Assembly: GCA_036378675.1 (NCBI GenBank)
Contig: DASUWA010000023.1
Location: forward strand, 62,001-126,000
DNA: 64,000 nucleotides
Direction of reading: 5' to 3'
DNA from: Acidimicrobiales bacterium
GTDB lineage: Bacteria > Actinomycetota > Acidimicrobiia > Acidimicrobiales > Palsa-688
The position numbers and the translations under genes were made by a program. Within the stretch, counting starts at the first letter, position 1, and every line of letters begins with the position of its first letter. The notes below the pieces were generated by a model. It made no database searches and was not told where the DNA came from. It was given only the letters and a program-made list of their open reading frames with translations. This document shows positions 4,597 through 57,575 of this stretch, one piece after another.

Positions 4597-5477
4597 AGGA
4601 GCTCCCGAAGCAGTGCGACGGCGTCGTCAGGTCGGGTGGCCGCCAGGCATGGTGAGCTCGAGGGGCAGACCCGCGGCCGTGGCTGAAAGTTCCGAAGGCT
4701 GACTCTTTCGTTGTATGCGTATCTGGTCTCGGCGTCGAGGCACGAGTCGGTGCAGGCGTCTCCGCGCAGCGCCGCGCTGTGCGTCCACGGCCGTATGTAC
4801 ACAGAGTTGAGCCTGCAGATGGTGACGGTCGGTGTTCCTTGTTGAACCGCAATGTGGGTGAGCCCGGTGTCGATGCCGATCACCCCCTGACACGCAGACA
4901 GGACGTCGACCGCGACCGCCGGCGTGGGCGCTACCAGTCCGGGAATGCCTGCTGGGGATGACCCCTCCGTTTTGAGGACCATGGCGGTGTCGTGTCCTTC
5001 GGCGCGAAGCATGGCGTCCACGGCCTTCCAATGGCGGGCCGGCCAGACCTTGTGGGCGCCGTCCGTCTCGTGGACCAGCAGCACGGTGCTGCTCAGATCG
5101 GAGCGAGGATCTGCGCGAAGCGGCCTGGGGCGGCTGAAGTCGGCCTCGATCCCGAAATCGACGCAGATGCGCTCGAGGATGTCATTGATGTTGAGTCGAC
5201 CGAACTGCGCCTCGAACGCAGCCGATCCCCACCAGAAGTCGCGTTGGAGCGGATGATCACGCAGGTCGACGATCCGGTCACCGGGACCGCACGTCAGCTC
5301 GGCCTCTTCTACGACGCCTGCCAGACCGGAGATCCGTTCGGCGAGGAGCCGTTGGGAGGATGCCCGCGCGACCAGCCACACCGGCTGGTCGCTGTCTATG
5401 AGGGCTTGGATCGCAGGAAGGGAGACCACTAGGTCCCCCAGCCCGTAGGACACCGGGGCGATAAAGGTGCGGCCCAT
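4593..5477 (-). CDS. Glycosyltransferase family 9 (heptosyltransferase-like)
   Basis: About 294 residues starting at ATG 5477 (MGRTFIAPVSYGLGDLVVSLPAIQAL). This is the GT9 N-terminal Rossmann pattern with the G-x-GD-x-V-x-S-P-A loop. The acceptor/donor domain contains LLVHETDGAHKVWPARHW and GVIGIDTGLTHIAVQQGTPTV, the family hallmark around the sugar-nucleotide site. The C terminus has clustered cysteines (CTDSC and RVCPSSSPC), seen in some GT9 proteins. The usual GT9 role is transfer of ADP-heptose to lipopolysaccharide, which an actinomycete lacks, so the acceptor must differ. It starts 2 bp after the queC stop and overlaps the propeller gene by 4 bp: a translationally coupled operon. Confidence 0.8.
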   Translation of the reverse strand: MGRTFIAPVSYGLGDLVVSLPAIQALIDSDQPVWLVARASSQRLLAERISGLAGVVEEAELTCGPGDRIVDLRDHPLQRDFWWGSAAFEAQFGRLNINDILERICVDFGIEADFSRPRPLRADPRSDLSSTVLLVHETDGAHKVWPARHWKAVDAMLRAEGHDTAMVLKTEGSSPAGIPGLVAPTPAVAVDVLSACQGVIGIDTGLTHIAVQQGTPTVTICRLNSVYIRPWTHSAALRGDACTDSCLDAETRYAYNERVSLRNFQPRPRVCPSSSPCLAATRPDDAVALLRELL

Positions 5478-21359: not shown

Positions 21360-23074
21360 GCGTCGTATCCAGGCAGCAATACGCCGCCCTCTACGGACCC
21401 ACCGTCGGCGACCGTTTCCGCCTGGCGGACACGTCCCTGATCGCAAAAGTCGAGCGGAGTCTCATTCTCCCCGGGGAAGAAGCGATTTACGGGGGAGGGA
21501 AGTCCGTGCGTGACGGGATGGCTCAGGTCCCCGGACTTCGGAACGCTGACGGTGCCCTTGACCTTGTCATCACCTCGGTGATCGTCATGGACCCGATCTT
21601 GGGAATCTTGAAGGCAGACATCGGCGTCACGGACGGGCGTATCGCTGGAATCGGTCAGTCAGGGAACCCGCACCTGCAAGACGGCGTCGACCCACGCTTG
21701 ATAATCGGTGCGGGCACCGAGGTGATAGCTGGAGAGGGTCTGGTGGCGACACCCGGGGCGGTCGACACGCACGTGCATTTCCTCACTCCCACTCAGATAC
21801 CCCATGCGCTCTCGAACGGCGTGACCACGCTGATAGGCGGCGGAACGGGTCCCGCAGACGGCTCCAAGGGAACCACGTGCACTCCCGGCCCGTGGAACAT
21901 CGAGAGGATGCTCGAAGCGACCGCTACTCTCCCGGTGAACATCGGCCTTCTCGGGAAAGGCAACAGCAGCAGGCCGCAATCATTGATCGAACAGCTCGAA
22001 GCAGGGGCGTGCGGACTGAAGGTCCATGAGGACTGGGGCGCAACCGCCGCGGCTCTCGACTGCGCCCTTTCGGTTGGCGACGAGTTCGACGCGCAGATAG
22101 CCCTACATGCCGACACCCTCAACGAGGGGGGTTATCTGGTCGACACCATCCAGGCGATCAACGGCCGGGCGATCCATAGCTACCACACCGAGGGTGCAGG
22201 CGGCGGCCACGCCCCCGACATGATGGCGATAGCTTCGCTACCAAACGTTCTCCCGTCCTCCACCAACCCGACCCGTCCATACACAACCGATACCACGGAC
22301 AATCTCTTTTGGATGACGGTCATCACCCACCACCTGAACCCCGGCAACCCGGAAGACATCGCGTTTGCACAGTCCCGGATCCGCGCTGAAACCGAAGCAG
22401 CAGAGGACGTGCTGCACGACATGGGCGTGCTCAGCATGTACTCGTCCGACTCACAGGCGATGGGTCGAATCGGCGACACCGTTGCGACGTGCTGGCGGAC
22501 CGCCGACAAGATGAAGACGATGGTCGGCAGCCTGGATGGCGATCCGTCCGACAACGACAATCAGCGGATACTGCGCTATCTCGCCAAGCTGACGATCAAC
22601 CCGGCAGTCACCCACGGGATCGGCCACCTGGTGGGATCGCTCGAGACCGGAAAGGTCGCTGACATCGTGCTGTGGCCGACGAACACATTCGGAGTCAAGC
22701 CCAAGCTGGTAATCAAGGGCGGCCTGGTGAACTGGGCGACGATCGGAGACGCCAACGCATCGATTCCGACGCCCGAGCCCGTTCAGTTGCTCCAGATGTT
22801 CGGCGGACTCGGCAAGGCCGTCGGGCGCACGTGTTTGACGTTCGCCTCCCAGGCGGCGGTCGATCGAGGGCTAAAGGATCGTCTTGAGCTGGACCGGTGG
22901 ATCGAGCCGGTGAAGAACTGCCGAACGATTGGCAAGGCCCAAATGGTCCGCAACAGTGCCACCCCAGAAATTAGCGTCGATCCCGAGACCTATCAGGTTA
23001 CGGTCGACGGCCGGTCGGCGACCGTCGGCCCAGCGGAAACCGTGTCTCTATCACAGCTCTATTACCTCGTCTGA
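21356..23074 (+). CDS. ureC: Urease subunit alpha (catalytic)
   Basis: The 572-residue subunit carries the di-nickel centre. With an offset of +5 from Klebsiella numbering, the ligands are present: His139/His141 (THVHF), the carbamylated Lys222 with HED (KVHED, His224), His251 (LHAD), His277 ([10 protein letters not shown]), Asp365 (SSDSQAMGR) and the catalytic His325. The mobile-flap Cys, normally in VCHHLDP, is Thr324 (VITHHLNP); Thr here is known from a few ureases and lowers sensitivity to thiol reagents. Length and domain order are normal. It touches ureF by 1 bp (TGATG). Confidence 0.96.
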
Positions 23075-53720: not shown

Positions 53721-53744
53721 CTTGACTCCCTGATCGTCGATCGT

Positions 53745-53870
53745 TAGGGTGGCGTCGCTCCGGCTGACCGGGGCGACATCACGACAGCGAAGTCCGGTGA
53801 GATCCCGGCACTGTCCCGCAACGGTGAAGCCCTTCGGGGGTAAGTCCGGACGCCTGGGTGATGTCGACGT
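53745..53870 (+). ncRNA. Cobalamin riboswitch
   Basis: Core consensus is present: AGTCCGGTGAGATCCCGGCA and CTGTCCCGCAACGGTGA (53790-53827), then TAAGTCCGGACGCCTG. The closing stem pairs GCGACATCAC (53773-53782) with GTGATGTCG (53858-53866). It ends about 85 nt before the transporter gene, whose ribosome site (AAGGAG) could be sequestered. Adenosylcobalamin excess would turn off cobalt uptake. Confidence 0.93.
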
Positions 53871-53956
53871 GACCGAACCCTCGGCGCAAGGGCGGTGCGT
53901 TTCGACGCTCAGCAGTTGTCGGGCCACTCCACCTTCGAGGCAGCAAGGAGAAGTGG

Positions 53957-55063
53957 ATGACCGAGACGCTTGGGGGTACGGGTCGAGGAGGGGTGGTGTT
54001 GTCGACGGCCGAGCGAGCTCGGTTGGGCCTGATGGCCGCGGTGGTGCTCGCGATCAACGTCATCGGCTGGGGCATCTTCATCTTTGCCATCGCCCCGCAC
54101 CACTTCCGGTACAAGGGCCTCGGGATCGGCTTGGGCGTTGCGCTGACCGCGTGGACCTTAGGGGCGAGGCACGGCTTCGACGCCGATCACATCTCGGCTA
54201 TCGACAACACCACCCGAAAGCTCATGGCCGACGGCAGCCGGCCGTTGGGCACCGGCTTCTTCTTTGCTCTCGGTCATGCGACAGTCCTCGTTTTGGTCGG
54301 TGCCGGGTTGTGCGTCGCGGCGCGGGCAGTGTTCGGGGCGATAGTCGATCCTGCTTCGAGCTTCGAGACAACCGGAGGGGTGATCGGAACTTCCCTGGCA
54401 GCCGGGTTTCTATACCTCATCGCGGCGTTGAACCTGGTCGTTCTGGCTGGAATCCTCAAAGTGTTCCGGCGGATGCGCCAGGGCGGCTTCGACGAAGAAG
54501 AACTCGAGCGCCAACTCCAGGCGAGAGGGCTCATGTACCGATTCTTCGGACGGTTCGTGCGATCAATCACGAAGAGCTGGCACATGTTCTTCGTCGGAGC
54601 CGTCTTCGGGATCGGCTTCGATACCGCCACGGAAGTGCTGCTCCTCAGCGCGACAGCAACAGCAGCAACCCAAGGCCTCCCTTGGTACGCGGTCCTTTCT
54701 CTGCCCCTGCTCTTCGCTGGCGGGCTCACCATCTTCGACACCCTCGACGGGTTCTTCATGAACTTCGCCTACGGGTGGGCCTTCGCCCGGCCGGTCCGCA
54801 AGGTGTACTACAACCTAGTCATCACCGGACTGTCCATCGCCGTCGCGCTGTTGATCGGCACCATCGAGATCGCCAGCGTTCTATCGGACAAGCTCAACCT
54901 TCACGGTGGCATTTGGGACCTCATGGCCAACTTCGACATCAATCAGGCCGGTTACATAGTCGTTGGGCTCTTCATCGCCGTTTGGTTCGCCGCTGTCACC
55001 TACTGGAAGTTTGCCCGGATCGAAACCCGCTGGGCCACAAGTGTGATCGACCAACCGGAGTAG
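53957..55063 (+). CDS. Nickel/cobalt transporter, NiCoT family (HoxN/NixA)
   Basis: A 368-residue, eight-TM permease. The signature RHGFDADHI at 71-79 (HX4DH type) is intact, as are FFFALGHATVLVLV, GFDTATEVLLL and LFAGGLTIFDTLDGFFM. It imports Ni2+ or Co2+. The cobalamin riboswitch just upstream indicates cobalt supply for B12, and nickel for the urease in this genome is possible too. ATG 53957 with AAGGAGAAG. Confidence 0.95.
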   Translation: MTETLGGTGRGGVVLSTAERARLGLMAAVVLAINVIGWGIFIFAIAPHHFRYKGLGIGLGVALTAWTLGARHGFDADHISAIDNTTRKLMADGSRPLGTGFFFALGHATVLVLVGAGLCVAARAVFGAIVDPASSFETTGGVIGTSLAAGFLYLIAALNLVVLAGILKVFRRMRQGGFDEEELERQLQARGLMYRFFGRFVRSITKSWHMFFVGAVFGIGFDTATEVLLLSATATAATQGLPWYAVLSLPLLFAGGLTIFDTLDGFFMNFAYGWAFARPVRKVYYNLVITGLSIAVALLIGTIEIASVLSDKLNLHGGIWDLMANFDINQAGYIVVGLFIAVWFAAVTYWKFARIETRWATSVIDQPE

Positions 55064-55084: not shown

Positions 55085-55744
55085 TCATTCTGGACGCAAG
55101 ATCCCAAGCAGTTCTCCGTCCGGTGTCGTCACCAGAAGCTCACGAACGCGGCTGCCCGCCATGCGTTCCCGGGCTTCTTTTAGGTTCTCGCTGGGTCTGA
55201 TCGTGGTGGGTCCGGGTCTCATCACGTCGCCGGCGGAGCGCGGGTCTTCGGCATCGATCGCATCCAGGTGCTCTAAGCGTCCGGCCACGATTCCCTGACT
55301 GTTGACCACCACAGAAGCGGTGATGTTGGGTCCCAATCGCCGGCGGACTGCACCGACCTGTTCGTCGACGTCGCAGGTCCGCACGCCGCGATCCATCGCG
55401 GTCAGGACGCGGGGTTCGGACGGGCCAGGCCCCTCAGTCGCCCAACCCGCTGCGATCCAGTCGATCTTGCCGGTCGAGTAGTCGTAAACCTCGACGAATC
55501 CGAGTTGTTCGAGCCGCCACGCGGCTCGCGGGCTCATGTCTCAAAGGGCATCCCAGCAGTAGACGGCGACCGGCCGGGAGGCGTCGAGTCGAGCAGCGCT
55601 GTGGGAGTCGAGTTCTTTGAGGGGAATGTTCACCGCACCCGGAATGTGTTCCTCCGCATACTCATCGGCTGGGAGGACCTCAACCAGCTGGGCTCCGTTG
55701 TCCATCAGTTCGCGAAGGCGGTGACGATCAATCGACCTAGGCAT
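55085..55744 (-). CDS. Rhodanese-CBS protein with in-frame TGA (candidate selenocysteine)
   Basis: A single 219-codon frame from ATG 55744 (strong GGAGGAG) to 55085, broken only by TGA at codon 68 (55543-55541). Codons 1-67 are a rhodanese N part, LVEVLPADEYAEEHIPGAVNIPLKEL, ending in VAVYC63WDAL. After TGA the same frame gives DMSPRAAWRLEQLGFVEVYDYSTGKIDWIAAG, the rest of the rhodanese, then a CBS-pair-like region. I recall homologues with Cys at this position (YCxxxxCDxSPRAA). A hairpin follows 12 nt after TGA. Either Sec is inserted or this is a fresh nonsense mutation. Confidence 0.7.
55510..55528 (-). promoter_or_regulatory. Hairpin downstream of the in-frame TGA (SECIS-like)
   Basis: On the minus strand: CGAGCCGC-GTG-GCGGCTCG, a perfect 8-bp stem with a 3-nt loop starting with G. 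The loop begins 20 nt after the TGA (55541). These values fall in the range described for bacterial SECIS elements (16-37 nt, G at the first loop positions). High GC makes chance hairpins common. Confidence 0.45.
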
Positions 55745-55779
55745 CGGTCTCCTCCGGATGGGTTTCGATGTGTTCTCAG

Positions 55780-57575
<1,796 letters not shown>

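Follow-up and report, generated by a model that had tools for sequence, protein, structure and literature searches.

The rhodanese-CBS gene of this Acidimicrobiales genome raises the question whether a TGA codon within its frame is a premature stop or is read as an amino acid. The gene lies in a window of 64,000 nucleotides (the whole stretch of DNA that was analysed), begins with ATG at position 55744 on the minus strand and ends there with a terminal TGA at 55085. Its sole in-frame TGA is codon 68, located inside the rhodanese active-site loop, five residues from Cys63. The original prediction had described a frame of 219 codons interrupted by this TGA alone and preceded by GGAGGAG; frame, domains and ribosome-binding site were found as described, and the strand, which had not been stated, is the minus strand. 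The features of the gene are as follows.

55085–55744, minus strand: predicted rhodanese-CBS selenoprotein gene, 219 codons and TGA stop
55541–55543, minus strand: codon 68, UGA, predicted to be read as selenocysteine; TGA in 68 of 73 homologous genes
55556–55558, minus strand: codon 63 (TGC), the rhodanese-loop Cys of catalytic type, with TGA instead in 19 homologues
55749–55755, minus strand: ribosome-binding site GGAGGAG, read from the sequence ahead of the ATG
55451–55720, minus strand: rhodanese domain, residues 9–98 (Pfam PF00581, 53.6 bits, cut-off 22.2)
55097–55234, minus strand: CBS domain, residues 171–216 (Pfam PF00571, 42.0 bits, cut-off 24)
55510–55528, minus strand: SECIS-like hairpin, 8 perfect pairs, GUG loop

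The rhodanese match passes the Pfam cut-off for membership and runs across the TGA of codon 68. Single-sequence structure prediction of the protein gave no usable model (mean pLDDT 38.3, pTM 0.27).

Homologues were sought in a sample of 99 relative genomes, of which 20 matched the rhodanese-CBS query at E ≤ 1e-10. Full-length homologues comprised 17 genes with one TGA (from 14 of the 99 genomes, the present gene included) and two genes with Cys. All 17 TGAs fall at one aligned codon, amid invariant Cys63, Asp65, Asp69, Ser71 and Arg73. The TGA-bearing relatives have 41–54% protein identity to the present gene and show no decay after codon 68; beyond this codon, identity of the 18 homologues compared is 34–51%. 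The original prediction had left a recent mutation as the alternative and had looked to an alignment of relatives for a decision; relatives with a conserved TGA and an intact downstream sequence exclude it. The distribution of the full-length gene is patchy at the level of genus and family, since only one genome (G018) among 31 of the same family in the relatives sample contains it. In larger samples, matches at E ≤ 1e-30 were obtained in 34 of 395 genomes of the class and in 43 of 396 genomes of the phylum, and in two of the latter 43 carriers the match stops short of codon 68. Reading at the level of codons covered at most 30 of 34 rows in the class sample and at most 30 of 52 rows in the phylum sample. 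Among the matches listed from the relatives, class and phylum samples no TAA or TAG was present inside a homologue; in-frame stops were all TGA.

From the loci of these searches 73 distinct genes were extracted with a sequence pattern, and three states of the loop were found: CxxxxU (49 genes), UxxxxU (19 genes) and CxxxxC (5 genes). Codon 68 is therefore TGA in 68 and TGC in 5 of the 73 genes, i.e., a conserved in-frame UGA with Cys in homologues, by which selenoprotein genes are recognized. The homologues with Cys at codon 68, which the original prediction had mentioned, do exist, although most homologues have TGA; likewise, its C-x4-U motif was recovered, as one of three states. Two genes missed by the pattern, L055 (CxxxxU) and L078 (CxxxxS), were read separately, and thus residue 68 in homologues without TGA is Cys or, once, Ser. 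The genome (G130) of the homologue with Ser, L078 (YCSDAHSD), has a tRNA-Sec. In the 19 UxxxxU genes codon 63 is also TGA, e.g., VVYUHDGLUDMSPRAAC. On an unrooted tree of 74 rows the state of residue 63 (Cys or Sec) requires two changes, consistent with a single gain and a single reversion (L069), and that of residue 68 (Sec or not) requires four; the rows with Cys or Ser at residue 68 are scattered within Sec clades. The tree omitted L044, a Cys form with a broken frame from a Sporichthya MAG. This was one of two loci from a named genome collection; the other, L045, is a weak rhodanese match outside the rhodanese-CBS family.

A perfect 8-bp hairpin with a G-first loop, 20 nt after the TGA and within the range of bacterial SECIS elements, had also been predicted. 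The hairpin, CGAGCCGC-GUG-GCGGCUCG (arms 55521–55528 and 55510–55517, loop 55518–55520), indeed has eight pairs, with 12 nt between UGA68 and the stem and 20 nt between UGA68 and the loop; the minimum free energy (MFE) of the 45 nt following UGA68 is −17.8 kcal/mol. The bSECIS model, as quoted in the available part of PMC13188914, has a loop of 3–9 nt, a stem of 4–16 bp, a G in the first two loop positions, a distance of 16–37 nt from the UGA and an MFE of ≤ −7.5 kcal/mol; with its 3-nt loop, 8 bp, G in first place and 20 nt, the hairpin agrees with this model. Taken singly, the hairpin of the present gene is weak evidence for a SECIS element: synonymous-codon shuffles of this gene average 5.9 of 8 pairs (p = 0.037), and part of the pairing in the stem already follows from the encoded protein and from GC-rich codons. 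TGA and hairpin together are lifted above chance by their conservation in 68 homologous genes.

In the alignment of 17 genes, 95.6% of stem cells pair, a value reached by 4 of 500 shuffles, and slid controls gave 23–60% pairing; pairs changed on both sides numbered one, which is not significant (reached by 70 of 500 shuffles). Compared with synonymous shuffles, for which codon usage was pooled over the whole family rather than taken per genome, stem pairs amounted to 379 of 392 in CxxxxU genes (275.7 ± 6.9, highest 297, in 1000 shuffles), 133 of 152 in UxxxxU genes (92.4 ± 4.5, highest 108) and 28 of 40 in CxxxxC genes (25.6 ± 2.3), these pooled counts not being independent, since the genes are related. 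Mean z values of folding energy against synonymous shuffles were −1.46 (CxxxxU), +0.51 (UxxxxU) and −0.14 (CxxxxC). The UxxxxU genes are thus no stabler than their shuffles, and energy gives their hairpin no support.

The best evidence for the hairpin is the matching of Ala and Arg codons across the stem. In the 68 TGA genes the paired codons are GCC/CGG (62 genes), GCT/CAG (5) and GCA/CTG (1). Wherever Arg was replaced, by Gln in five genes and by Leu in one, the Ala codon on the other side of the stem had changed to match (6 of 6), which implies at least five changes on the tree; elsewhere in these genes GCT and GCA make up only 7.9% and 11.2% of Ala codons, respectively. All 68 TGA genes use GCG for the next Ala, compared with 31.7% of Ala codons elsewhere. 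No such regularity of the stem codons is seen in the five Cys genes, while a further Cys form from Nonomuraea (L151, outside the 73 genes) has kept 7 of 8 pairs, with a GCA loop. In UxxxxU genes the loop of the hairpin lies 20 nt past the second UGA and 35 nt past the first, both distances being within the 16–37 nt given in the available part of PMC13188914, and a single hairpin might serve the two codons.

The four components on which the original prediction had made its reading depend, SelA, SelB, SelD and tRNA-Sec, were all found in the same assembly (4.1 Mb in 75 contigs, completeness 97.3%, contamination 0.8%). A cluster on contig C71 encodes SelA (407 bits, cut-off 267.9), SelB (266.6 bits, cut-off 242.25) and SelD (324.7 bits, cut-off 125), the last in its Cys form, and contig C59 contains a tRNA-Sec with the anticodon UCA (66.7 bits), with which ARAGORN agrees. 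With lengths of 10.7 and 14.7 kb the two contigs are short, which leaves some possibility of misbinning. Formate dehydrogenase, sought as a further selenoprotein of this genome, gave neither a match above the cut-off nor one with an internal TGA.

The set expected of a selenoprotein producer is complete in this genome; among the carriers of the gene it was found only in part. Counting matches of at least 56 bits, tRNA-Sec was detected in 11 of 14 Sec-form genomes of the relatives sample vs 45 of 85 others (one-sided p = 0.064) and in 19 of 27 Sec-form genomes of the class sample, where seven of the eight without it are ≤ 81% complete. A tRNA-Sec was present in 27 of the 43 carriers in the phylum sample vs 176 of 353 others (E ≤ 1e-10; one-sided p = 0.074, before rechecking); a laxer recheck of the 16 carriers without it added one genome (G620, confirmed by ARAGORN), giving 28 of 43, and 11 of the 12 weak matches fetched were other tRNAs. 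Of the three Sec-form relatives without tRNA-Sec, G060 has a SelB above the cut-off, and G032 and G039 have SelB matches below the cut-off only; gaps in the drafts are a likely but unproven reason for the missing machinery of the latter two. Of the relatives with the Cys form, G092 has neither tRNA-Sec nor SelB, and G076 has tRNA-Sec and no SelB match. The association of tRNA-Sec with the Sec form is in the right direction and weak, since selenocysteine decoding is common in these bacteria.

The gene occurs also on plasmids. Seven plasmid records matched, four of them covering at least 80% of the query, and the hosts of these four are all Actinomycetota according to their records. The plasmids of Pseudonocardia broussonetiae and Pseudonocardia autotrophica have TGA at codon 67, and both records contain two genes, rhodanese-like and CBS domain-containing, which are split exactly at the UGA:

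L148, 438–1103, and L149, 5995–6663: Pseudonocardia plasmid copies (two species), annotated as two proteins

In these two records annotation cuts the gene in two, and proteins of the family are thereby hidden from searches by function. The copy on a plasmid of Rubrobacter marinus is of the TGA form, with a frame break upstream of the predicted Sec codon, and that of Nonomuraea gerenzanensis has TGC. The record of the Rubrobacter copy (L150, near 5001–5205) has the CBS part alone annotated.

Three other readings of the TGA may be weighed against selenocysteine. From a single genome, a mutation or sequencing error in a decaying gene with a premature stop could not be told apart, and TGC at codon 68 in five genes would suit such an origin. 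That 68 of 73 genes, spread over many families of genomes, share the TGA, that identity persists after it and that inner TAA or TAG codons are lacking among the matches listed makes this origin extremely improbable. Just as improbable appears the expression of two proteins by design, i.e., an N-terminal rhodanese part of 67 residues and, separately, a CBS protein which starts from the ATG after the TGA (TGA GAC ATG). Such an ATG is present two codons past the TGA here and in Pseudonocardia, where the records list two genes, but it is not kept, with Leu, Ile or Ser in its place elsewhere (UDLS in L026, UDIS in L083, UDSS in L055); moreover, the split would cut the rhodanese domain in its active loop, so that the second part would start inside the domain, and the Cys forms are one continuous frame.

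The codon could also be read without selenium, as Trp by reassignment, as Cys by a tRNA-Cys which reads UGA, as exists in some bacteria, or by leaky read-through, and the carriers in which no tRNA-Sec was detected would be accommodated in this way. We consider this very unlikely, if slightly less so than the other two readings: residue 68 in homologues without TGA is Cys (one Ser) and not Trp, the present gene uses TGA as its own stop, the complete selenocysteine machinery with a tRNA-Sec(UCA) is in this genome, and codon choice preserves the SECIS-like hairpin. As judged by these comparisons of sequences, UGA68 of the present gene is almost certainly decoded as selenocysteine.

Known rhodanese selenoproteins differ from the protein described here. 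A 2026 inventory (PMC13188914) contains 119 selenoprotein subfamilies, with proteins that differ in their Sec position counted as separate subfamilies; in its available part five rhodanese forms are given (UxxS, UxxG, CxU, UxxG and UxxxxU), and a CxxxxU rhodanese or a rhodanese-CBS form does not appear there among the 119. Forms 1, 2 and 4 (UxxS, UxxG, UxxG) have the rhodanese domain in common with the present protein, but Sec opens the motifs listed for them, and none is CxxxxU (PMC13188914, available part). Form 3, rhodanese_LYCAU (NF041203), likewise has one rhodanese domain and a Sec close to its catalytic Cys; its motif is CxU (PMC13188914, available part) instead of CxxxxU, and with its model the present protein reaches 17.0 bits, the cut-off being 115. 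TsoB (NF045694, rhodanese/DsbD fusion-like) has UxxxxU according to the same part of PMC13188914, the same spacing as in the double-Sec relatives found here. Its model, however, has 572 positions with a DsbD-like part and no CBS in the name, while the present protein, which possesses a CBS domain, reaches 19.1 bits with a cut-off of 805. TsoB was reportedly defined in the work of Haft and Tolstoy in 2025.

An NCBIfam scan of the protein gave 19 weak matches, none over the cut-off. The words rhodanese and CBS are absent from the main text of PMC12013277 (deep-Sep), and no literature joining selenoprotein, rhodanese and CBS domain was found, with prior mention being possible in Haft and Tolstoy 2025, Haft and Gwadz 2023 and supplementary tables. 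To this extent, no earlier description was found of what appears to be a family of rhodanese-CBS selenoproteins, some with two predicted selenocysteines. The best solved relative by sequence is BH2092 (PDB 3nhv, profile E 2.9e-17), a 144-residue chain which, unlike the present protein, has no CBS part. Its YCWGPAC, with both loop residues Cys, aligns with YCxDxxU, so that Sec68 would replace the second Cys of a CxxxxC rhodanese.

The surroundings of the gene were examined for hints to its function. Upstream are:

55780–57483, minus strand: open reading frame, presumably thiC, 35 nt before the ATG of the rhodanese-CBS gene
57490–57571, minus strand: TPP riboswitch ahead of the thiC-like gene (Rfam RF00059, 65.3 bits)

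In this genome, the distance of 35 nt suggests that both genes are probably on the same transcript, and the riboswitch that the selenoprotein gene may be under thiamine control. As a conserved partner thiC was rejected, being not common to the 36 neighbourhoods compared; this comparison excludes L137, in which no anchor was found. Two further Rfam matches in the window are a cobalamin riboswitch at 53740–53875 (plus strand, 32.8 bits, cut-off 31.5), which precedes a frame of 368 residues (53957–55063) which we take to be a nickel/cobalt transporter, and RF02514, 5_ureB_sRNA, at 21505–21806 (minus strand, 43.5 bits, cut-off 40).

A wider pattern, with near-identical genes merged, yielded a set of 81 genes (57 CxxxxU, 18 UxxxxU, 5 CxxxxC, 1 CxxxxS). 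Among the 81 neighbourhoods, which are of unequal length, tblastn detected a DF-family gene in 20, a MerR-type gene in 18 and MerB in 3; none of the three is at the present locus. DF (NF049942), a known (seleno)protein family, precedes the rhodanese-CBS gene in the same orientation in 19 of 20 cases, and nine of the 18 MerR genes share its strand. The DF neighbours listed carry Cys, and of three tested with NF049942 (cut-off 70), two scored just below (68.0 and 64.3) and one above (105). For the two MerR proteins that were tested, the matches were to metal-responsive models (Cd/Pb, Cu, Zn, Hg), none of them over the cut-off. Two of the MerB neighbours are supported by Pfam (98.7 and 93.9 bits, cut-off 27) and the third by similarity; the active-site pattern of MerA was absent from all 36 neighbourhoods scanned. 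The gene order in P. autotrophica is MerR, alkylmercury lyase, DF, rhodanese-CBS. Several UxxxxU genes (L058, L061, L062, L063, L066 and others) were observed with an upstream DF gene and a MerR-type regulator, and from the sequences a three-gene metal-responsive operon of DF, MerR-type and UxxxxU genes is possible. Selenoproteins with ties to metal or organometal chemistry include the Sao proteins and MerB-like SaoL (PMC13188914, available part), which belong to other protein families; the MerB neighbours match MerB better than SaoL. The neighbours favour a metal reading for part of the family only, the present locus having none of them; for the family, a role with metals or mercury, as suggested by MerR, DF and MerB, is a possibility which we regard as rather doubtful.

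Regarding the mechanism, decoding of UGA68 as selenocysteine would depend on SelB, on tRNA-Sec and, as the guiding signal, on the hairpin a short way downstream, and the product would be a full-length selenoprotein of 219 residues. Sec68 would close the six-residue rhodanese loop which is opened by Cys63 (Cys-x4-Sec), at a position where other members have Cys. Cys63 could attack a sulfur, selenium or metal-bound substrate; Sec68 could be the resolving residue or a second ligand, joined to Cys63 in a selenenyl-sulfide or a chelate, and a cellular reductant could then reset the pair. We consider this loop chemistry reasonably probable. In one clade of relatives the first loop residue appears to have become Sec as well, and the pair of Cys63 or Sec63 with Sec68 may serve in sulfur or selenium transfer, in reduction or as a chelate for soft metals; the CBS part probably senses a ligand. 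A more speculative and, in our opinion, unlikely proposal is an upgrade with selenium in two steps, from CxxxxC or CxxxxU to UxxxxU, within a metal-responsive operon, where the Sec pair would chelate or transfer Hg(II) released by MerB, or another soft metal, and one SECIS element would serve two UGAs.

The predicted selenoprotein would add a CxxxxU/UxxxxU rhodanese subfamily with a CBS domain to the known ones. Loops with Cys, with one Sec and with two Sec in related bacteria should allow direct tests of the benefit of each selenium atom, and the UxxxxU genes could be a testbed for the decoding of two UGAs, 15 nt apart, by one SECIS element. With MerR, DF and MerB as neighbours in part of the family, a role in the handling of soft metals becomes testable.
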